Origin: a virus
IMG/VR virus record: IMGVR_UViG_3300047472_000237
Coordinates: 1 to 64,000 of that record
Length of the DNA: 64,000 nt
Reading direction: 5' to 3' (one strand)
The translations under genes and the position numbers were made by a program. The notes beneath the pieces were generated by a model, which made no database searches, had not been told where the DNA came from, and saw only the letters and a program-made list of their open reading frames with translations. Of the stretch, positions 44,093 through 64,000 are shown one piece after another. How positions within the stretch are numbered: the stretch's first letter is position 1; each line of letters begins with the position of its first letter.

Positions 44093-44788
44093 ATGAACGT
44101 GCCGTACACTTCGAACGCGCTCGGCTTGACCATCAAGTCCGCTGACGACATCAAGACCCTCGAGCCCAAGCAGATGCTCTCGCTCCACAACGAGATCTCG
44201 AACGCCTCCGTCAAGCGGTTCGCCGACAAGAAGAGCGGCGTCAAGCGCACGGTCGAAGCGTTCCAGACCTGGCAAGGCCAGCAGACCGAGAAGACGCCCA
44301 AGCTGGTCACCGCCGACCACAAGTCCTTCCGCAAGGACAGTGCCCGTGGCAAGGTCATCGCCGCTGCCTCGAAGGCCGGCGGTGCGACCCGCGCCCAGCT
44401 GAAGGAGATCTCCGGCTGGGACGACACGAACCTGACGGCGGCCCTGAGCCGCGTCGAGTCGTACAACGGCCTGACCGTGACCCGCACCGGCGAAGGCGAC
44501 GAGCAGATCATCGTCATCACCGGCGTCCTCCGCACCCGCAAGGCGTTCGCCTTCGACCCGCTCCCCGAGAAGCAGCGTCGAGCACACAAGGAGAGCGGCA
44601 CGCCGACCAAGCGCTCCAAGGTCGTCGCCATGCTCACCGCCAAGGGCGGGGCCTCGTTCGAGGAGATCCAGGCGGCCACCGACTGGAACGACCGCGACGC
44701 GTACGAAGGCATCCGTCTCATCCACAGCTATCTTGGATATGGCCTGAAAGAGACGGGCGAAGGCAAGATCATCGCTTTCCGCGCGTAA
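44093..44788 (+). CDS. DUF3489 (winged-helix) protein
   Basis: 231 residues. The C-terminal about 65 (KRSKVVAMLTAKGGASFEEIQAATDWNDRDAYEGIRLI...) match DUF3489, a small winged-helix domain; a second, similar unit sits at about 85-130 (RGKVIAAASKAGGATRAQLKEISGWDDTNLTAALSRV). So it carries two related DNA-binding-like domains in tandem plus a basic N terminus. A regulator or DNA-modification accessory role is possible: it stands directly upstream of the modification cassette. Confidence 0.7.
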   Translation: MNVPYTSNALGLTIKSADDIKTLEPKQMLSLHNEISNASVKRFADKKSGVKRTVEAFQTWQGQQTEKTPKLVTADHKSFRKDSARGKVIAAASKAGGATRAQLKEISGWDDTNLTAALSRVESYNGLTVTRTGEGDEQIIVITGVLRTRKAFAFDPLPEKQRRAHKESGTPTKRSKVVAMLTAKGGASFEEIQAATDWNDRDAYEGIRLIHSYLGYGLKETGEGKIIAFRA

Positions 44789-45156: not shown

Positions 45157-46017
45157 ATGGCCTCCCAGAACTATCCCCGCGTCACGATTGAAGACTTTGG
45201 CAAGCACCTGCTCGACGCGGGCGATCTGGATCCCATCTATCTCGGCCTCCACCGGCTGGCCCTCCCCGCGAATCAGCTTCATCGCTGGCTCCTGGCATAC
45301 TGTTGCTTCTACAGCGCCGGCGTCGCTTCGTACCTCTCTGAGTTCGAGGGTGCGACCTTCTGGGAACACTTCCTCACCGCTGCCAAGAACGAGACCCCGG
45401 CCCCGCATGGCGGACGTTGGGAGCGTGGCAAGGAACGTCGCCACTTCCGTGGCGGACAGGCCATCAAGGCCACCAACGAGCTCATCGGCAAGTACCCCGT
45501 CCCCGAACTCGCCTTCAACGGGCACCTGGTCCGCCCCGGCGAGACCCGCCTACCCTTCAGCGTGGTCAGCGACCGCGCTCAGGAGTGGCGAGGCTTCGGC
45601 ACCTGGATCTCCTTCAAGGTCGGCGACCTGCTCGACCGTGTCGGCATTATCCCCGTCGACTTCGCGTTTGACGAGGCGATGTACGAAGATCCGACCAAGG
45701 CCGCGATCATGCAGTGGAAGCTGCGGCGCGACCTGCCCCAGGACTCGACCATCGACGACCCGAAGGCCGCCGTGCAGGAGATCGTCGCGTACCTCATCGA
45801 GCACTTCAAGGACTATCTGGCCCCGCCGCTGCTCGACCGCCCCATCGGCCTCCAGGAGGTCGAGACGATCCTCTGCAAGTGGAAGTCGCACATCAACGGG
45901 CACTACCCGTTCTTCAACGACACGGTCGAGATCCACCACGGTGTCTCTCCCTGGGCCAACCACAGCGACACGGCCAAGCGGTTCCTCGCTGCCATGCCTC
46001 AGCCGCCGGCCAAGTAA
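45157..46017 (+). CDS. Amino acid:DNA transferase-like protein (5-hmdU hypermodification)
   Basis: 286 residues. The block WLLAYCCFYSAGVASYLSEF (about 44-63), FWEHFLTAAKNE and KERRHFRGGQAI (about 90-101) is characteristic of the family first named alpha-glutamyl/putrescinyl-thymine pyrophosphorylase clade 2 and later shown to be amino acid:DNA transferases. In phages such as M6, ViI, SP10 and phiW-14 they join an amino acid to the activated (pyrophosphorylated) 5-hydroxymethyl of uracil in DNA. The assignment is by motif memory. GAAAGAA precedes the ATG; the structured RNA ends 21 nt upstream. Confidence 0.75.
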   Translation: MASQNYPRVTIEDFGKHLLDAGDLDPIYLGLHRLALPANQLHRWLLAYCCFYSAGVASYLSEFEGATFWEHFLTAAKNETPAPHGGRWERGKERRHFRGGQAIKATNELIGKYPVPELAFNGHLVRPGETRLPFSVVSDRAQEWRGFGTWISFKVGDLLDRVGIIPVDFAFDEAMYEDPTKAAIMQWKLRRDLPQDSTIDDPKAAVQEIVAYLIEHFKDYLAPPLLDRPIGLQEVETILCKWKSHINGHYPFFNDTVEIHHGVSPWANHSDTAKRFLAAMPQPPAK

Positions 46018-46022
46018 TCCGT

Positions 46023-46051
46023 TTGCCTTCTGTCGCCTTTCAGTGTATCTT
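46023..46051 (+). promoter_or_regulatory. Promoter of the leaderless class
   Basis: TTGCCT (46023-46028), 17-nt spacer, TATCTT (46046-46051), only 5 nt to ATG 46057. Confidence 0.75.
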
Positions 46052-46056
46052 CGATC

Positions 46057-46890
46057 ATGAGCACAACAGTCAACATCATCGGGGCCGGGATCGCTGGCTC
46101 CATCACTTCAACCCTCCTCCGCACGGCAGGGTTCAACACGCGGGTCATCGACGACGCTGACAAGTTCTCCGCCAGCGCGGCGAGCTCCAACCTGTTCATC
46201 GTCGATTGGTACGACACCGACCTGAAGCAGATCGCTGACGGCTTCGACGTGCTCGAGATGCTCTACAAGGACGTGACGGAGTTCCCGTTCAAGGCCGGCA
46301 TCAAGATCGCACCCCGCATGCTGCACATCGGGCAGCGTCACCTGCTGGTCAAGCCGGACGTGATCGGCACTGTGACCTACGCCGACGAGCAGGGAGTCGC
46401 CCTGGGCGACATGCAGCACTTCGATGGCCCAGTGATCCTGGCGGCCGGCTACCGCGCCAACACGCTCATCCGCGACCACGCTCAGCACCACGACATCGAG
46501 GTCTACGCGGGCCACCGCTACCTGTTCAAGGGAGACCTGGCCGAGGGCCGCCTCGACATGGTCGCACCGTACAAGCACGGCAAGCTGTACCAGTACGCAC
46601 CGGGGCAGATCTACTACGCCGACAGCGTGAAGCTCCAGCTGAAGTCCTACAACAAGCGACAGGCCGAGATCCAGGAGCGGACGCTCGCTCGTGCCCAGGC
46701 GGCACTAGGTCGTACAGACCTCGAGATCATCGACTTCCGAGTGGGGTATCGCCCTGTCATCGCTGAGAAACCGCTTGGCGTACTCGACCGCATCAGCAAG
46801 AATGTGTGGAGTATGAACGGCGGCGGCAAGAACGGCACTGTCGCCTATGCCGGCCTCGCCCGGCAGCTTCTCGAGGAGCTCAGGGCCTGA
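46057..46890 (+). CDS. FAD-dependent enzyme, probable amino-acid-thymine lyase
   Basis: 277 residues. The N terminus is a Rossmann FAD-binding fold (VNIIGAGIAGSITSTLLRTAGFNTRVIDD, GxGxxG then Asp at the end of strand 2), and the C terminus has FRVGYRPVIAEKPLGVL and a GGGKNGTVAYAGLA block as in small DAO-like oxidoreductases. Flavin-dependent lyases are known tailoring enzymes of phage thymidine hypermodification, cleaving an attached amino acid to leave 5-aminomethyl-dU. Role inferred from fold plus neighbours. Confidence 0.7.
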   Translation: MSTTVNIIGAGIAGSITSTLLRTAGFNTRVIDDADKFSASAASSNLFIVDWYDTDLKQIADGFDVLEMLYKDVTEFPFKAGIKIAPRMLHIGQRHLLVKPDVIGTVTYADEQGVALGDMQHFDGPVILAAGYRANTLIRDHAQHHDIEVYAGHRYLFKGDLAEGRLDMVAPYKHGKLYQYAPGQIYYADSVKLQLKSYNKRQAEIQERTLARAQAALGRTDLEIIDFRVGYRPVIAEKPLGVLDRISKNVWSMNGGGKNGTVAYAGLARQLLEELRA

Positions 46891-47177
46891 TGAGCAAGAA
46901 GGCCGGCAAACCTCTCCTGCCATTCTTCAAGTCGCTTCGCAAGCGCAAGAAGAAAGGGAAGAAGCGGACCATCGTAACTGACTGGGACTTGCCGCCGATC
47001 GTGGAGAAGACGAAGACCCTTGCCGATTGCTACGAAGAGGACTACAGTGACCGCAATGCAAATCCGCCCCGCCACCCCCGACGACCACAAACGCCTCTGC
47101 GAGATCGCCCGCTCACACCGCGCGGGGAACGGCTTCTCGAACATTCAAATGTTCAGCGGCCCGACCCACTACGCTAA
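46890..47177 (+). CDS. Small basic protein
   Basis: 95 residues, overlapping the FAD gene at TGATG. The N terminus is very basic (FFKSLRKRKKKGKKR), then DWDLPPIVEKTKTLADCYEEDY. The last 40 residues overlap the start of the acetyltransferase in another frame and look like a shadow, so the functional part may be only about 55 residues, or a frameshift may have extended it. Confidence 0.45.
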   Translation: MSKKAGKPLLPFFKSLRKRKKKGKKRTIVTDWDLPPIVEKTKTLADCYEEDYSDRNANPPRHPRRPQTPLRDRPLTPRGERLLEHSNVQRPDPLR

Positions 47178-47505
47178 CGGCTGGCTGCGTGTGATGGTCG
47201 ACGCCGAAGGCAAGATCGTCGCCTTCACCTGCATTCGTCAGAAGAAGACGACGAAGCAGACGAAGCTCTACTACATCATCGTGGACACGGCGTACCGCTC
47301 CGGCGGCATCGTCGACAACAAGCCGGTCGTCGGCATCGGCCAGGCGCTCCTGGATGACCTGATCACCAACTCCCCGTATCGCGAGCTCATCTGCGACTGC
47401 CTGAAGGACAATGAGCCGGCTCTGAAGTTCTACAAGAAGAACGGCTTCGAGATCGTGGGTGAGTCCCTCAAGGGCAAGGGACACATCCTCCTGAAGAAGT
47501 GGTGA
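47047..47505 (+). CDS. GNAT-family acetyltransferase
   Basis: 152 residues. The GNAT fold is clear: MQIRPATPDDHKRLCEIARSHR, LYYIIVDTAYRSGG, the acetyl-CoA loop KPVVGIGQALLDDLI (Q/RxxGxG/A) and NEPALKFYKKNGFEIVGE. GNAT enzymes acetylate amino groups; in this cassette the expected substrate is the aminomethyl group left on uracil. GTG 47047 (GAGG at 7 nt) or ATG 47056 can start it. Confidence 0.8.
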   Translation: MTAMQIRPATPDDHKRLCEIARSHRAGNGFSNIQMFSGPTHYANGWLRVMVDAEGKIVAFTCIRQKKTTKQTKLYYIIVDTAYRSGGIVDNKPVVGIGQALLDDLITNSPYRELICDCLKDNEPALKFYKKNGFEIVGESLKGKGHILLKKW

Positions 47506-47607
47506 GCACGGAGTGAACTTGTCGGGCCAAACCTCGTGCACGGCCTGCTTGCCTTAAATGCTGCCGCCCGGTCGAGGTCGGGAGAGGCGAATCCAGGTGC
47601 TCACCAC
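47499..47607 (+). ncRNA. Structured RNA element with a possible pseudoknot
   Basis: GTGGTGAGCAC (47499-47509) is perfectly complementary to GTGCTCACCAC (47597-47607). Inside, CGGGC (47523) pairs GCCCG (47566) and CCTCG (47532) pairs CGAGG (47573) in interleaved order, which makes a pseudoknot. The 5' strand overlaps the acetyltransferase stop codon. It precedes the kinase gene and could be a cis-regulatory leader. Confidence 0.45.
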
Positions 47608-47620
47608 TCTTGAGGGAACT

Positions 47621-47998
47621 ATGGACACCATCATCGTCGCTCATCATGTCGCACACTTCAGCTGTGCACTACTTACTCTCTTGTGCATCGCCTACGTCGC
47701 GAAGCCGAAGGACCGTTCCCAATGCGTAACCCGACCATCGTCAATATCCGTGGCACGAGCGGCTCTGGCAAGAGCACTCTGGTCAAGGCGATATTCGCCC
47801 GCTGCACCAATGTCGAGCCAGTGCGGGCACCTTCCACCGCGAAGCGCAAGCAGCCGCTCGGCTACACGATGCAATACAACTCGCTCGGCGCGGAGAACAA
47901 CCCGCAGAAGCTGTTCATCGCCGGCCACTACGAATCAGCCTGCGGCGGCTGCGACACGTTGGGGAAGTACCTTCCCGATGTCGTCACTCCTCGTCTGA
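47621..47998 (+). CDS. Possible small membrane or leader peptide
   Basis: A frame starting MDTIIVAHHVAHFSCALLTL with a hydrophobic helix in residues 9-26. GAGGG precedes the ATG. From about residue 40 it overlaps the kinase gene in another frame and becomes Arg/Ser-rich, which looks non-functional. It may be a leader peptide for the kinase or no gene at all. Confidence 0.3.
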   Translation: MDTIIVAHHVAHFSCALLTLLCIAYVAKPKDRSQCVTRPSSISVARAALARALWSRRYSPAAPMSSQCGHLPPRSASSRSATRCNTTRSARRTTRRSCSSPATTNQPAAAATRWGSTFPMSSLLV

Positions 47999-48375
47999 TC
48001 GGCGACGACACCGAGCCGAACAGCTACCACTTGACCTTCGGCCTGGTGCGTGAGTACTGGCGGCGCGGCTACAACGTCGTGTTCGAGGGCCTGCTCATCA
48101 GCGGCGACGTGCGGCACACCAAGGCCCTCCACGACGACGCCCTCCCCATCAACGTGGTCGGCTTCGACCTGCCCGTGGACTTCTGCATCGCGTCCGTCCT
48201 CGAGCGGCGGAAGGCCGCTGGCAACGTCAAGGAGTTCAACGAGGCCAACACGCGGGACAAGCACCGCCTCCTCGTGAACTGCCTCTCGAAGCTCGACGTG
48301 GCGGGCGTGCCCGTACAACGCTGCGGCACTCGAGAGCTCGCCTCGGACGCGGTCTACGCCCTCCTGGGCATGTAA
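47722..48375 (+). CDS. P-loop kinase, candidate 5-hmdU DNA kinase
   Basis: 217 residues. Walker A is near the N terminus: IVNIRGTSGSGKSTLVKAIF (about 6-25); a later segment YNVVFEGLLISGDVRHTKAL suits Walker B/lid functions. IRGTxGSGKS kinases of this size are the ATP-binding part of the 5-hydroxymethyluracil DNA kinase of hypermodifying phages, which phosphorylates the base hydroxymethyl in polymerised DNA. AAGGA lies about 10 nt before ATG 47722. A strong terminator follows. Confidence 0.7.
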   Translation: MRNPTIVNIRGTSGSGKSTLVKAIFARCTNVEPVRAPSTAKRKQPLGYTMQYNSLGAENNPQKLFIAGHYESACGGCDTLGKYLPDVVTPRLIGDDTEPNSYHLTFGLVREYWRRGYNVVFEGLLISGDVRHTKALHDDALPINVVGFDLPVDFCIASVLERRKAAGNVKEFNEANTRDKHRLLVNCLSKLDVAGVPVQRCGTRELASDAVYALLGM

Positions 48376-48391
48376 CGTGCGACGCCGCTCC

Positions 48392-48426
48392 AGGCCGCTC
48401 CGACCCGCTCGGAGCGGCCTCTCTTT
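48392..48426 (+). terminator. Rho-independent terminator after the kinase gene
   Basis: AGGCCGCTCCGA (48392-48403) pairs perfectly with TCGGAGCGGCCT (48409-48420) around CCCGC, followed by CTCTTT. Confidence 0.85.
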
Positions 48427-48443
48427 GGCCCCGAAAGTTCAAC

Positions 48444-49352
48444 ATGATCGACGCAAACGTCAACGTCTTCTTCGCGCTCGCACGAGAGCGGTACGCCATC
48501 CAGCGCCGGCGCGAGGGGACGATCCCCAACCCGCACGCTCCCCACTTCTCGGCCAACCCGATCTTCCAGCGGTATCGGTTCTGCAACCTGTTCCGCGAGC
48601 AGGATCGGACGACGGCCTGGTTCCGGGACACGCTGCGTGAGCCGCTCCGCAACGACGCGGCCCGCGTGCTGTTCGCCACCATCGCCTTCCGCTGGTTCAA
48701 CCGCATCAGCACCGGGAAGCTCATCAGCGGCTTCCTGATGGAGGGCCACCGGACGTGGAAGCCTGAGAGCATCCGCACGATCCTGAAGGACGTGAAGCCG
48801 GTCGTCACCGGCGCGTACATCATCAAGACGCCGAACGGCATGAACAAACTCGACGGCGTGCTGTGGTGCATCGAACAGGTGCGGAAGGACATCGACCATC
48901 TTGCGGGTGCCCTGGGCCACACGCCGCCCGATGAACGCTCGCTCGAAGGCACGTGGGAGGCGCTCCGCCAGTTCCCGTATCTCGGCGACTTCATGTCGTA
49001 CGAAGTCGTCACGGACTTGCGACACACCTGCTGGCTCGACCAGGCGTCCGACCGCTACACGTGGTGCAATCCTGGCCCAGGGTGTACGCGGGGCCTCGGG
49101 TGGGTCGTCCACGGCGACTTCGACCGCTGGAACAGGAGCTCGAAGACCGACCGCGCGGCCATGCAGCCTCACCTGGAGAAGCTGCTCGAGCTCGCCAACA
49201 GCGACAGCGAGCTCTGGCCCGACGACTTCCCGGACTGGGAGATGCGCGAGGTCGAGCACTGGCTCTGCGAAGTGTGCAAGTATGTCCGCGTTGAGAGCGG
49301 CGGCTCTCCGCCGAAGGAAATCTTCAGGAATGCGCTTGCCTCCGTGAAGTGA
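48444..49352 (+). CDS. 5-hmdU DNA kinase helical-domain (HMUDK_hel-like) protein
   Basis: 302 residues, helical. The N terminus VFFALARERYAIQRRREG, then NPIFQRYRFCNLFREQDRTTAWF (about 33-58) is the signature of the helical domain associated with 5-hydroxymethyl-dU DNA kinases; RFNRISTG-type and GYIIKTP-type motifs follow (here FRWFNRISTG, GAYIIKTPNG). In other phages this domain is fused to or next to the P-loop part; here it is a separate gene after a terminator. It probably gives DNA/base recognition to the kinase at 47722. Confidence 0.72.
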   Translation: MIDANVNVFFALARERYAIQRRREGTIPNPHAPHFSANPIFQRYRFCNLFREQDRTTAWFRDTLREPLRNDAARVLFATIAFRWFNRISTGKLISGFLMEGHRTWKPESIRTILKDVKPVVTGAYIIKTPNGMNKLDGVLWCIEQVRKDIDHLAGALGHTPPDERSLEGTWEALRQFPYLGDFMSYEVVTDLRHTCWLDQASDRYTWCNPGPGCTRGLGWVVHGDFDRWNRSSKTDRAAMQPHLEKLLELANSDSELWPDDFPDWEMREVEHWLCEVCKYVRVESGGSPPKEIFRNALASVK

Positions 49353-49371: not shown

Positions 49372-49914
49372 GTGCGTCGATTCAAGGCAGCGAAACCTCT
49401 GGCCCGTATCACCGACGAGAGCGTCAAGGCGCGGCTGGAAGAGAATCGGCGGCTCGCTCCCTGTCCGGTTGCGGCCTACGTGCCGGACGGCAGCCCGCTG
49501 AAGGGCGACTGCTGGGAGTGGACTGGATGTGCCCCGGATGGGTACGGCCAGATCAAGGTCGCGGGCGTCGTGCAGCGGGTGCACCGCGTCTCCTTCGCCG
49601 TGTACAAGGGCGAAGTCCCGAGGAAGATCACCGTCGATCACCTCTGCCACAACCCGAAGTGTTTCAATCCAGAGCACCTGGAACTACAGACTGCCGCCAT
49701 CAACTCTGGCTACAGTCGCATGGAGTACCGATATGATTGTTCTCAAGGCACGCAATGCCCACCAGGCCCTGCCGGAGATGATGCACCAGGTCCAGAGCAA
49801 CGACAAAGCGGTGACGCGGTCGAGCCGGAACGGGCCTGTGATCCAGTTTGTGGAGCCGTTCACGATCCAGTACGCGAAGCCGACGGAGCGGGTGGTGTTC
49901 TGGCCGGAACGTGA
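49372..49914 (+). CDS. HNH endonuclease
   Basis: 180 residues from GTG. Residues about 45-110 hold the HNH core: CWEWTGCAPDGYGQIKVAG, HRVSFAVYKGEVP, then VDHLCHNPKCFNPEHLEL with the catalytic DH and N-x-x-H and a CxxxxC zinc pair. The last about 60 residues overlap the thymidylate synthase homolog in another frame and look like read-on sequence, so the enzyme proper ends near residue 120. Such genes are often mobile. Confidence 0.75.
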   Translation: MRRFKAAKPLARITDESVKARLEENRRLAPCPVAAYVPDGSPLKGDCWEWTGCAPDGYGQIKVAGVVQRVHRVSFAVYKGEVPRKITVDHLCHNPKCFNPEHLELQTAAINSGYSRMEYRYDCSQGTQCPPGPAGDDAPGPEQRQSGDAVEPERACDPVCGAVHDPVREADGAGGVLAGT

Positions 49915-50809
49915 CGCCAACCCGTTCTTCCACCTGTTCGAGTCGCTCTGGATGCTCGCCGGCCGCAACGACGTGGCCTATCCCGCCCGCTACTCCAGCA
50001 ACATCGGTCAGTTCAGCGACGACGGCCAGACGTTCCACGGCGCGTACGGTCACCGCTGGCGTCGACACTTCCAGCTGACCGACGAGATGACCGGCCGCTC
50101 GCAGCCCATCGACCAGCTGAGCACCATCGCCGCCGCGCTCAAGGCCAACCCGGAGGACCGCCGCCAGGTGCTGTCGATGTGGGACGCCACGGTCGACTTG
50201 GGCCGACAGGGCAAGGATCTCCCCTGCAATCTCCAGATCGTCTTCCAGCGTGACCACAACGGCCGCTTGAACATGACGGTGTACAACCGCTCGAACGACA
50301 TCCTGTGGGGTGCTCTCGGCGCGAACTGCGTCCACATGAGCTACCTCCAGGAGTACATGGCGGCGGCCATCGGCTGCGAGGTCGGACAGTATTGGCAGAT
50401 CTCCGCCAACATGCACGCCTACACGGAGCTCACCCCGCTCCTGAAGAAGTGCCTGCCGCTCGACGACCACTGTTGGCCCTCGTCCGGCTACAAGCACACT
50501 GACCCGTACGAAGGGGCCATCGAGCCGTTCCCACTGGTCAACACGCCCCTGGCCCAGTGGGAGGGCGAGCTCCGCATGTTCATCGATGAGCCGACCGCCA
50601 TCGGCTTCCGTGACCCGTTCTTCCGCCGGGTGGCGTCGCCGCTCGCAGCGGCCTACGTCAAGTTCAGTGACCGCAGCGACCCGCACCGCTTCGAGCACGC
50701 CTTCAATGCCCTGAACAGCGCGGCCAACTGCGACTGGCGGCTCGCCGCCTTCGAGTGGCTGACCCGCCGCGAAGCCGCTGCGAAGTTGAAATCAACCACG
50801 GCTCAGTGA
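49733..50809 (+). CDS. Thymidylate synthase homolog, probable dUMP hydroxymethylase
   Basis: 358 residues. The TS fold is recognisable from FHLFESLWMLAGRND, YGHRWR, DRRQVLSMWD, LPCNLQIVFQR with the nucleophilic Cys (about residue 165), and NRSNDILWGALGANCVHMSYLQEYMA. The residue after the catalytic Cys is Asn where true TS has His (PCH), which, with the hypermodification cassette next door, favours a dUMP 5-hydroxymethylase; the Asn of GANC suggests uracil rather than cytosine. It would supply 5-hydroxymethyl-dUMP. An ordinary TS cannot be excluded. Confidence 0.75.
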   Translation: MIVLKARNAHQALPEMMHQVQSNDKAVTRSSRNGPVIQFVEPFTIQYAKPTERVVFWPERDANPFFHLFESLWMLAGRNDVAYPARYSSNIGQFSDDGQTFHGAYGHRWRRHFQLTDEMTGRSQPIDQLSTIAAALKANPEDRRQVLSMWDATVDLGRQGKDLPCNLQIVFQRDHNGRLNMTVYNRSNDILWGALGANCVHMSYLQEYMAAAIGCEVGQYWQISANMHAYTELTPLLKKCLPLDDHCWPSSGYKHTDPYEGAIEPFPLVNTPLAQWEGELRMFIDEPTAIGFRDPFFRRVASPLAAAYVKFSDRSDPHRFEHAFNALNSAANCDWRLAAFEWLTRREAAAKLKSTTAQ

Positions 50810-51894: not shown

Positions 51895-52515
51895 ATGGCC
51901 AGCAAACCCGGCCGCAAGATGATCAATTGGGACAAGGACGACTTCAGTCGCTTCCTCAAGATGGTCGCGTTCGTCGTGTACCACTACGACGGGGAGCACT
52001 CCGTCAGTCGCCACTTCCGCCGGTTCTGCTGGATCCTGCCACAGCTGTCTCAGCGAGTGCTCGGCCGCGTAGTCACCTACGATGACGTGGTCGAGCACTT
52101 TCGTACGACGCAAACCCGAGAGGTCTCGGAGAACGCCATCTTCCAGCGAGGGGACAAGACTCAGCGGTATCAGGAGTTCAACTCGATGCAGCACCTGGTC
52201 GTCGGTGCCTACCACGACCTGAAGGGACTGTCGCTCGAGGACGGACCCGAGATCGACACGGTTCGAGACTTCACCAACGACCAGCTTGCCTGGGCCGTCA
52301 AGCGGTACGGCAACGGCTGCTATTGGTGCAAGGCCCCGTTCAGCGACATGGTTGGAAAGGTCGCGGATCATTACGTTCCCCACTCCAAGGGTGGCAGGAC
52401 GACGAAGGAAAACTGCCGTCCGTCGTGCCCGACCTGCAACGCGTCGAAGAGCGACATGATGCCAGACGAGTTCGTAGCCAAGCGGATGGCTCTCGCGGCG
52501 CGGTGCCGGAAATGA
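51895..52515 (+). CDS. HNH endonuclease (McrA-like zinc type)
   Basis: 206 residues. The C-terminal 70 hold CYWCKAPF, VADHYVPHSKGG (catalytic DH) and ENCRPSCPTCNASKSDMMP, the CxxC...CxxC HNH of the McrA/5-methylcytosine-endonuclease type. The N-terminal 120 residues are a helical domain I do not recognise. It lies between nucleotide-pathway genes and the DNA polymerase. Confidence 0.8.
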   Translation: MASKPGRKMINWDKDDFSRFLKMVAFVVYHYDGEHSVSRHFRRFCWILPQLSQRVLGRVVTYDDVVEHFRTTQTREVSENAIFQRGDKTQRYQEFNSMQHLVVGAYHDLKGLSLEDGPEIDTVRDFTNDQLAWAVKRYGNGCYWCKAPFSDMVGKVADHYVPHSKGGRTTKENCRPSCPTCNASKSDMMPDEFVAKRMALAARCRK

Positions 52516-54488: not shown

Positions 54489-54743
54489 ATGCTGACGACA
54501 CTGCTGTACATCTTCCTCGGCTGCTTCATCGCCTCCGCCGCGATCGACGTGATCAAGCTGGCGTGCACCTGGGTGCTCTTCCTCGCCTGCCTCGTCCTGT
54601 ACGACTGCACGTTCCTCTTCGCCACCTACGACGCCTGGACCGGCTGGTTCTGGGACAGCAAGAAGGGGCGGCTCTACGTGTTCCCCATCCCGATGTTCGG
54701 CTTCTACTTCGACTTCAAAGAGGATCCCACTTATGTCATGTGA
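54489..54743 (+). CDS. Small membrane protein
   Basis: 84 residues. Two hydrophobic segments (about 4-22 and 25-45) and an aromatic C-terminal half (WTGWFWDSKKGRLYVFPIPMFGFYF). AGGAC lies 4-8 nt before the ATG. It overlaps the dCMP deaminase gene. Unrecognised; a membrane-associated role only. Confidence 0.55.
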   Translation: MLTTLLYIFLGCFIASAAIDVIKLACTWVLFLACLVLYDCTFLFATYDAWTGWFWDSKKGRLYVFPIPMFGFYFDFKEDPTYVM

Positions 54744-55290
54744 CAACACCGACGGCCCTTGCTCGTGCGGAGCCTGGCACAAACCTGGCGACGGCACGTT
54801 GGGGTACATCCAGCCCGCATTCAATACGTGGGACATCCGCTTCCTCGAGCTCTCCGACCACATTGCTCTCTGGAGCAAGGATCCGTCCACCAAGTGCGGC
54901 GCGGTCATCGTGCGGCCCGACCGCAGCGTGGTCAGCGTCGGCTACAACGGCTTCCCCCGTGGCATGAGCGACGCCCCGGAGCTCTACGCCGACCGTGAGG
55001 TCAAGTACGACCGCGTCATCCACGCCGAAGTCAACGCGATGATGTCGGCCCACCAGAGTGTCAAGGGGTGCACGCTCTACACCAACGCCCCCTGCTGCTC
55101 ACGCTGTGCCGTCCACATGATCCAGGCCGGCATCACCAAGTTTGTCTTCTGGTCGCCGCTCCCCGGCCAACGCGAGCGTTGGGGCACCGACAAGTCGATC
55201 GGCTACATGCGAGAAGCCGGCGCGATCGTCATCGAAGTTTCACGCGGGCCGGCTGTATTGCCTGTTGCTCAAGAAACTCAACCAGGGTAA
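54733..55290 (+). CDS. dCMP deaminase
   Basis: 185 residues. Zinc motifs are HAEVNAMM (about 97, with catalytic Glu) and PCCSRCA (about 117). Family members convert dCMP to dUMP. Upstream, a Cys-rich N terminus (CDNTDGPCSCGAWH) may add a small zinc site. In this phage it would feed the thymidylate synthase/hydroxymethylase homolog. Confidence 0.88.
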   Translation: MSCDNTDGPCSCGAWHKPGDGTLGYIQPAFNTWDIRFLELSDHIALWSKDPSTKCGAVIVRPDRSVVSVGYNGFPRGMSDAPELYADREVKYDRVIHAEVNAMMSAHQSVKGCTLYTNAPCCSRCAVHMIQAGITKFVFWSPLPGQRERWGTDKSIGYMREAGAIVIEVSRGPAVLPVAQETQPG

Positions 55291-62897: not shown

Positions 62898-63635
62898 ATG
62901 GCCGTGAAGATCTCAATCATCAACCACTCCCACAAGGGATACGCGGACACCATCCCCGGCGTCCCATCCCTCGTCGACCTCGCCTTCGCTGATCCCCCGT
63001 ACAACTTCGGCGTCAAGTACGCCGACGATCCGACCAAGGATCGCATGACGCCCGCCGCCTACGAAGACTTCTGTAGCGGCATCATCTACACGATGTCGCA
63101 GAACCTGAAGCCGGGCGGCACCGCCTGGTGGCTGTGCCCGTCGGCGCACATGGACTTCATCCCGGCGCTGATGACCAAGCACGTCGGCCCGCTCATCTAT
63201 CGGATCATCAAGACCGAGACGTTCGCCCAGTACCAGCAGGCGAACTTGACCGACGACTACCGGATGTTGTTCGTGGCCCAGAAGCCTGGCGGCCCGCTGA
63301 CCCTGAACCCGGACGCGATCCGCATCCCGTCCAAGCGGCAGGAGCTCTACAAGGACAAGCGTGCTGACCCGCGCGGTCGCGTCCCCGGCCAGACTTGGGA
63401 GATCCGCCGCCTCCAGGGCACCAGCACCGACCACGTCGACTGGCACAAGGCTCAGCTTCCGCCCGAACTACTCTCACGCATCGCCCTCGGTTGGACAAAC
63501 CCCGGCGACACAATCCTCGATATGTTTGCAGGCTCCGGCAACTTCGCACTCGTGTGCAAGGCCCTCGGCCGCAACTTCTACGGCGTCGATCAATCCCCCA
63601 CGTACGTCGGCAAGATGAAGGAACGGATAGCGTAA
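62898..63635 (+). CDS. DNA methyltransferase (DPPY type)
   Basis: 245 residues. The catalytic motif IV is LAFADPPYNFGVKY (about 28-41) and comes before the AdoMet motif I MFAGSGNFALVCKAL (about 215), which is the beta order of amino-methyltransferases (N6-adenine or N4-cytosine). The target cannot be read from sequence; DPPY is commoner in adenine methyltransferases. No restriction gene lies next to it. Confidence 0.85.
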   Translation: MAVKISIINHSHKGYADTIPGVPSLVDLAFADPPYNFGVKYADDPTKDRMTPAAYEDFCSGIIYTMSQNLKPGGTAWWLCPSAHMDFIPALMTKHVGPLIYRIIKTETFAQYQQANLTDDYRMLFVAQKPGGPLTLNPDAIRIPSKRQELYKDKRADPRGRVPGQTWEIRRLQGTSTDHVDWHKAQLPPELLSRIALGWTNPGDTILDMFAGSGNFALVCKALGRNFYGVDQSPTYVGKMKERIA

Positions 63636-64000
63636 TGTCGAACACCATCAAACTGAACACGTCGCATCGTGATGCCATCCAGCGGAAGCTCATCGAGAAC
63701 AAGTTCAGCCCGCGCGAGAAGCAGCTGGTCCTGGACAACGAGAAGCTGGCCCTGGACGTCTACCACGCCACCTTCTCGCCCTCAGAGCGGAAGAAGATGG
63801 ACGAGCTCCCGGTCGGCTGGCTCCGCCGCGTGCACACCATCCGTGCCCGCCTGGGCGGCGTCGACTTCGGCTACAAGCTGGCCGGCAAGAAGAGCGTACC
63901 GATGCCAGCTGAGAAGTGCGACACGTACAACGAGCAGAGCACCTTCCTGCTCGCCGTCAGCGACGGCCCACTTGCGGTCGAGGCCCGCCGGCTCGAGCGG
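63635..64000 (+). CDS. Hypothetical protein, cut by the window end
   Basis: 122 codons are visible, open to the edge (TAATG overlap with the methyltransferase stop). The pattern KLNTSHRDAIQRKLIENKF ... LALDVYHATFS ... LPVGWL is reminiscent of phage proteins of the nucleotide-modification-associated type 5 group, but this is a weak impression. Confidence 0.55.
   Translation, partial: MSNTIKLNTSHRDAIQRKLIENKFSPREKQLVLDNEKLALDVYHATFSPSERKKMDELPVGWLRRVHTIRARLGGVDFGYKLAGKKSVPMPAEKCDTYNEQSTFLLAVSDGPLAVEARRLER

Follow-up and report, generated by a model that had tools for sequence, protein, structure and literature searches.

A probable PaMx11-type thymidine hypermodification cassette with a diverged flavoenzyme in an uncultivated siphovirus

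Which base does a phage make when its thymidine hypermodification cassette holds a flavoenzyme and an acetyltransferase, and neither a radical SAM nor a pyridoxal phosphate (PLP) enzyme? We addressed this question for the cassette at positions 45157-49352 of the IMG/VR virus record IMGVR_UViG_3300047472_000237; the window analysed comprises bases 1-64,000 of this 82,787-base contig, and the remaining 18.8 kb were also searched. The window phage has the layout of a Mesyanzhinovviridae siphovirus (portal, tape measure, tail proteins, helicases, ribonucleotide reductase, polymerase A, primase, RecJ-like exonuclease, and sigma-like factor). The genes observed are, in order, an amino acid:DNA transferase (ADDT), a flavoenzyme, a GNAT acetyltransferase, a P-loop kinase, and a kinase helical-domain protein (HMUDK_hel), followed by a thymidylate synthase (TS) homolog and a deoxycytidine monophosphate (dCMP) deaminase (Table 1). 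The gene order of phage PaMx11, homology to its glycinyltransferase and glycinylthymidine lyase, and a GNAT matched among phage records by PaMx11-type acetyltransferases only make 5-(acetylaminomethyl)-deoxyuridine (dU) the best prediction for the product. We therefore consider it probable that the cassette is a PaMx11-type thymidine hypermodification system of a YuA/PaMx11-like siphovirus ending in this base. The pathway is already known; what is new here is a diverged lyase branch in a larger uncultivated phage (at least 82.8 kb).

Gene content and the predicted route

An earlier reading made from the letters alone (the sequence-only reading) had proposed five cassette proteins, all of which are real open reading frames (ORFs) on the plus strand backed by profiles, the kinase in Pfam at sub-threshold level only. 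Profile searches placed the proteins starting at 45157 and 48444 in the families that this reading had assigned to them (ADDT, E 1.1e-21; HMUDK_hel, E 1.5e-36), and the TS homolog and dCMP deaminase do lie near the cassette, as it had claimed. Its route to the acetylated base is likewise supported by the PaMx11 homologies and by an acetyltransferase ortholog occupying the equivalent slot, with the chemistry predicted, while its comparison set (M6, ViI, SP10, and phiW-14) has to give way to PaMx11 and the other Abidjanvirus/Epaquintavirus phages. PaMx11 gp46-gp51 (Abidjanvirus) have the same content and order (transferase, flavin lyase, acetyltransferase, kinase, helical protein, TS homolog), and the order in PA_LZ03, Lucjan, and Epa5 is identical to that of the window. 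The window differs from the PaMx11 type in having a flavoenzyme of a different subclade, a nine-residue insertion in the GNAT, an HNH ORF ahead of the TS homolog, and no HD 5'-deoxynucleotidase, a profile to which Epa5 likewise had no match. YuA/M6 and Bordetella phage CN2 (5-(2-aminoethyl)-dU type) share the genome layout and are related in the transferase (~50%), TS homolog (56%), and helical protein (32%), but they carry PLP and radical SAM enzymes where the window has the flavoenzyme and GNAT. The sequence-only reading had seen neither of these enzymes, and this holds across the entire contig: radical SAM (PF04055) and PALP (PF00291) had zero matches in its 82,787 bases (positive controls worked in 14/14 genomes), our own YuA-derived profiles for the two enzymes were also negative on the contig, and no other recognised tailoring gene was found in it. 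The contig thus lies outside the M6/YuA type (5-aminoethyl-dU).

By sequence, the transferase is a member of the glycinyltransferase family of ADDTs: it is ~50% identical to PaMx11 gp46, the protein of the 'Glycinyltransferase' structures 8z2m/8z2n in the PDB (E 5.9e-82), and it also matches the PDB entry 25qc (E 2.1e-86). It is predicted to attach glycine to phosphorylated 5-hydroxymethyl-dU (5-hmdU) in DNA. Homology also indicates that both parts of the 5-hmdU DNA kinase are present, as in the PaMx11 type. The P-loop protein is 37.5% identical to PaMx11 gp49 (E 5e-37; AAA_33 and HMUD2 in Pfam, both below cut-off) and the helical protein 49% identical to PaMx11 gp50 (32% to YuA gp14), and for both PaMx11 is a closer relative than YuA, a phage with radical SAM and PLP enzymes. 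The TS homolog, 54% identical to its PaMx11 counterpart and 56% to that of YuA, has the CMP 5-hydroxymethylase MilA as best PDB match (E 1.2e-15), ahead of all TS. Alignment with E. coli ThyA shows its catalytic Cys165 and uracil-side Asn198 retained and both Trp of IWDEW replaced, a pattern which we take to fit a deoxyuridine monophosphate (dUMP) hydroxymethylase. Membership in phrog_5131, the MilA match, and this residue pattern together assign the TS homolog to the dUMP hydroxymethylase type, its activity being predicted. The dCMP deaminase, located after the DNA polymerase as in PaMx11, is predicted to supply dUMP.

Every reaction of the route is predicted by homology, and so are the attached amino acid, the donor of the acyl group, and the base finally formed. 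The dCMP deaminase would yield dUMP, the TS homolog would hydroxymethylate it to 5-hmdUMP, which would enter DNA via the triphosphate, and the kinase pair would phosphorylate 5-hmdU in DNA. At the transferase step an amino acid (glycine most likely) would displace the phosphate through its amine, and the flavoenzyme would then oxidise the N-C-alpha bond, the rest leaving as an oxo acid, to give 5-aminomethyl-dU, the amine of which the GNAT would acetylate to 5-(acetylaminomethyl)-dU. PaMx11 DNA reportedly contains this acetylated base, and acetyltransferases reportedly act in pathways of this kind. The acetylated 5-aminomethyl-uracil would very probably replace part of the phage's thymine and shield the phage DNA from restriction by bacteria; escape from restriction is the benefit described in the literature for related phages, namely M6, ViI, and one Delftia phage (PMC6449724).

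Three of the listed ORF starts were too early and were corrected by alignment with relatives (GNAT, ATG 47056, not TTG 47020; kinase, ATG 47722, not GTG 47683; TS homolog, ATG 49733, not GTG 49529), and none has a strong Shine-Dalgarno sequence. An HNH ORF lies between the helical protein and the TS homolog, and its 3' part overlaps the TS homolog start by ~180 bases. This overlap might suggest a broken or unexpressed cassette and DNA with plain thymidine or 5-hmdU only, but all frames are intact and full-length compared with relatives and the conserved residues are retained, and we regard such a loss of function as extremely improbable; the HNH ORF is probably a selfish or homing insertion outside the pathway.

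Table 1. Positions of the cassette genes, their neighbours, and a further enzyme of related cassettes
Feature	Position	Strand	Profile or motif
DUF3489 protein (not counted as pathway enzyme)	44093..44788	+	PF11994, E 4.7e-10
Amino acid:DNA transferase (ADDT)	45157..46017	+	PF18724, E 1.1e-21 (cut-off passed); phrog_6364, E 1.3e-91
FAD-dependent glycinylthymidine-lyase-like enzyme	46057..46890	+	DAO PF01266, E 3.4e-11
GNAT orthologous to PaMx11 gp48	47056..47505	+	Acetyltransf_7, E 1.7e-8 to 2.3e-8
P-loop 5-hmdU DNA kinase, NTPase part (predicted)	47722..48375	+	P-loop GTSGSGKS
5-hmdU DNA kinase helical-domain protein	48444..49352	+	PF18723 HMUDK_hel, E 1.5e-36
HNH endonuclease-like ORF	49372..49914	+	PF13392, E 4.2e-11
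TS homolog, predicted dUMP hydroxymethylase	49733..50809	+	phrog_5131, E ~1e-133
Second HNH endonuclease-like ORF	51895-52515
dCMP deaminase	54733..55290	+	PF00383, E 4.6e-19; phrog_174, E 3.2e-45
N6/N4 DNA methylase	62898-63635
Nmad5 gene	63635-64000, on to contig 64219 (L100:335-919)		PF18757, E 6e-19
Further FAD-like enzyme, six related cassettes	L015:2499-3425, L016:8669-9565, L017:7867-8781, L035:5332-6273, L038:975-1949, L057:1936-2925

The flavoenzyme and its subclade

The best PDB sequence match of the flavoenzyme was the PaMx11 'Flavin-dependent lyase' (8z2o/8z79, E 2.4e-14). We built an AlphaFold model from 32 homologs (predicted local distance difference test, pLDDT, 90; predicted template modelling score, pTM, 0.90) and compared it with 350,542 chains. 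The top structural match was gp47/NGTO, the lyase for 5-N-alpha-glycinylthymidine that depends on flavin adenine dinucleotide (FAD), with template modelling scores (TM) of 0.84/0.82, and the remaining matches listed, which include opine dehydrogenase, D-amino acid oxidase, and glycine oxidase, scored at most 0.72. Arg232 of the RP motif, Lys258, and Gly260 are invariant across the 32 homologs, the FAD glycines are also kept, and in a profile alignment the RP motif coincides with that of glycine oxidase. By predicted fold and sequence, the enzyme belongs to the gp47/NGTO lyase family, though in a diverged subclade, and a lyase activity is predicted for it.

Several findings weigh against 5-(acetylaminomethyl)-dU as the product. 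The transferase is equally near (~50%) to the transferases of PaMx11 and of YuA (radical-SAM/PLP type), and the transferase tree, consulted as a guide to the amino acid, shows mixed lineages with no separation by tailoring type; therefore, the sequence does not fix the attached amino acid. The flavoenzyme is only 23-25% identical to gp47 and falls in a separate subclade of five (support 100/97) with those of the metagenomic cassettes L036, L043, L049, and L054, which are 42-45% identical to it. Within this subclade, the motifs have changed as a set (GLFGS to GIAGS, CLMKPSW to NLFIVDW, GDGTAIK to ADSVKLQ, and TGGAKNG to NGGGKNG). The first of these points weakens the product prediction little, since N-C-alpha cleavage would lead from either glycine or serine to one and the same base. 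The exact reaction of the flavoenzyme is made less certain by the diverged subclade and the ~24% identity to gp47.

The diverged flavoenzyme might act differently once the amino acid has been attached by the same route, either on another amino acid substrate or by oxidation without release, which would leave a different acetylated base. The well-supported separate subclade, the consistent changes around conserved motifs, and the amino acid left unfixed by the transferase are compatible with this alternative. However, the fold is the same, Arg232, Lys258, and the FAD motif are invariant, and 3/5 subclade members carry the PaMx11 GNAT family (absent from the other 2/5), which suggests the same acceptor amine; we judge the alternative unlikely. 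For the window enzyme, we find it most likely that a diverged lineage has kept the gp47 reaction and give a change of substrate a smaller chance. It is also doubtful that the subclade as a whole has come to use another substrate or reaction and that, together with the GNAT inherited alongside, it yields an undescribed acylated thymidine derivative. A second, distant lyase-like enzyme may offer a means to learn what sets lyase specificity.

The acetyltransferase across related cassettes

The GNAT adjoins the lyase-like gene in the window, as its ortholog does in the PaMx11 type. When we searched it by tblastn against 50,697 phage records, matches were present in 15 records, all from PaMx11-type phages (35-42% identity), and the motif FSNxxMFSSxxxYxxGW is common to the window GNAT and these relatives. 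Viral contigs were scanned with a transferase alignment (130 found, 80 kept; a scan of viral contigs with a single transferase sequence confirmed nothing), and 67 IMG/VR cassettes with both transferase and helical protein, window included, formed the survey set. Among these, 27 have PLP and radical SAM enzymes, 15 flavoenzyme and GNAT (window included), 15 flavoenzyme alone, 7 none, and 3 mixtures. The flavoenzyme and GNAT combination is neither new nor rare: about one fifth of the sampled cassettes share it, contrary to the sequence-only reading, which had held it to be special. Because the transferase tree mixes the tailoring types, the tailoring genes seem to be exchanged among lineages of the transferase.

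We observed the GNAT in 15/32 cassettes with the flavoenzyme and in 0/35 without it (Fisher p 1.6e-6, kinship uncorrected), a p value which overstates the strength of the link, since the rows are related, a few of them repeat one another (the sequences of L031 and L019 match those of PaMx11 and Epa5, and L014 equals L063 in flavoenzyme and GNAT), and the L079 GNAT forms a very long branch. The GNAT accompanies the flavoenzyme even when placed otherwise, between kinase and helical protein in L070. That it follows the flavoenzyme across many cassettes supports an action on the flavoenzyme product, as a post-lyase step. The GNAT might instead acetylate a protein or small molecule, since its class acts on many substrates, and flavoenzyme-only cassettes equal those with both enzymes in number (15 each). 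The cassette of Stenotrophomonas phage Sonora is likewise flavoenzyme-only; in it the transferase (53% identical to that of the window) and the flavoenzyme (26%) hold the same slot and, unlike in the window, there is no GNAT and an Nmad5 gene lies inside the cassette. With the GNAT acting on another substrate, the final base in the window phage would be unacetylated 5-aminomethyl-dU, as expected for such cassettes. Against this stand the complete absence of the GNAT from surveyed cassettes without the flavoenzyme and from the searched phage records outside the PaMx11 type, as well as its persistence with the flavoenzyme in a changed position, and we consider the alternative improbable.

Neighbouring genes and other flavoenzymes

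The gene for the DUF3489 protein has the position of the gene preceding the transferase in Epa5, and a similar-looking ORF (L009:5648-6232) lies immediately before the transferase. A small basic ORF (46890-47177) has no family match, overlaps the GNAT, and is probably not a pathway gene. The kinase matched phrog_800, annotated as 'terminase small subunit'; we rejected this label, since the protein has a P-loop and is an ortholog of PaMx11 gp49. GenBank records of PaMx11 (gp49), YuA, and CN2 give the same label to the P-loop part of the 5-hmdU kinase, where it looks like a propagated misannotation. A second HNH endonuclease-like ORF lies between the TS homolog and the polymerase, so that an HNH pair flanks the TS homolog; its slot holds the HD 5'-deoxynucleotidase in many relatives, a gene not present in the window contig. 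An Nmad5 (nucleotide modification associated domain 5) gene directly follows the N6/N4 DNA methylase gene 13 kb from the cassette, and in YuA, as in Sonora, it is located within the cassette.

Three contigs (L059, L065, and L083) hold a radical SAM enzyme and a flavoenzyme homolog alongside the transferase, in place of the usual PLP and radical SAM pair, the flavoenzymes of L065 and L083 being very remote. Seven cassettes lack lyase, PLP, and radical SAM enzymes, and six of these have another Rossmann FAD-like enzyme between transferase and kinase, with VHIEGMGxxG at the N-terminus and GIRHFP at the C-terminus, and its copies are 41-60% identical to that of L017. This enzyme had zero matches in Pfam and PHROG, and a PDB sequence search gave nothing convincing; its model (pLDDT 80) is similar to DAO-type flavoproteins, and it is possibly an undescribed tailoring enzyme. 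Relatives of it (36-38%) occur in Gordonia phage CaiB (gene 5, L091:3054-3926) and Rhodococcus phage Tonitrus (PP978825.1, 3761-4588), where they adjoin an 'adenylate kinase' gene, and the first genes of Tonitrus are described as a Tet/J-binding-protein-like thymidine hypermodification system. In addition, a different GNAT-like ORF (L016:9763-10200; PF00583 weak, below cut-off) lies in one of the six cassettes with the further flavoenzyme.

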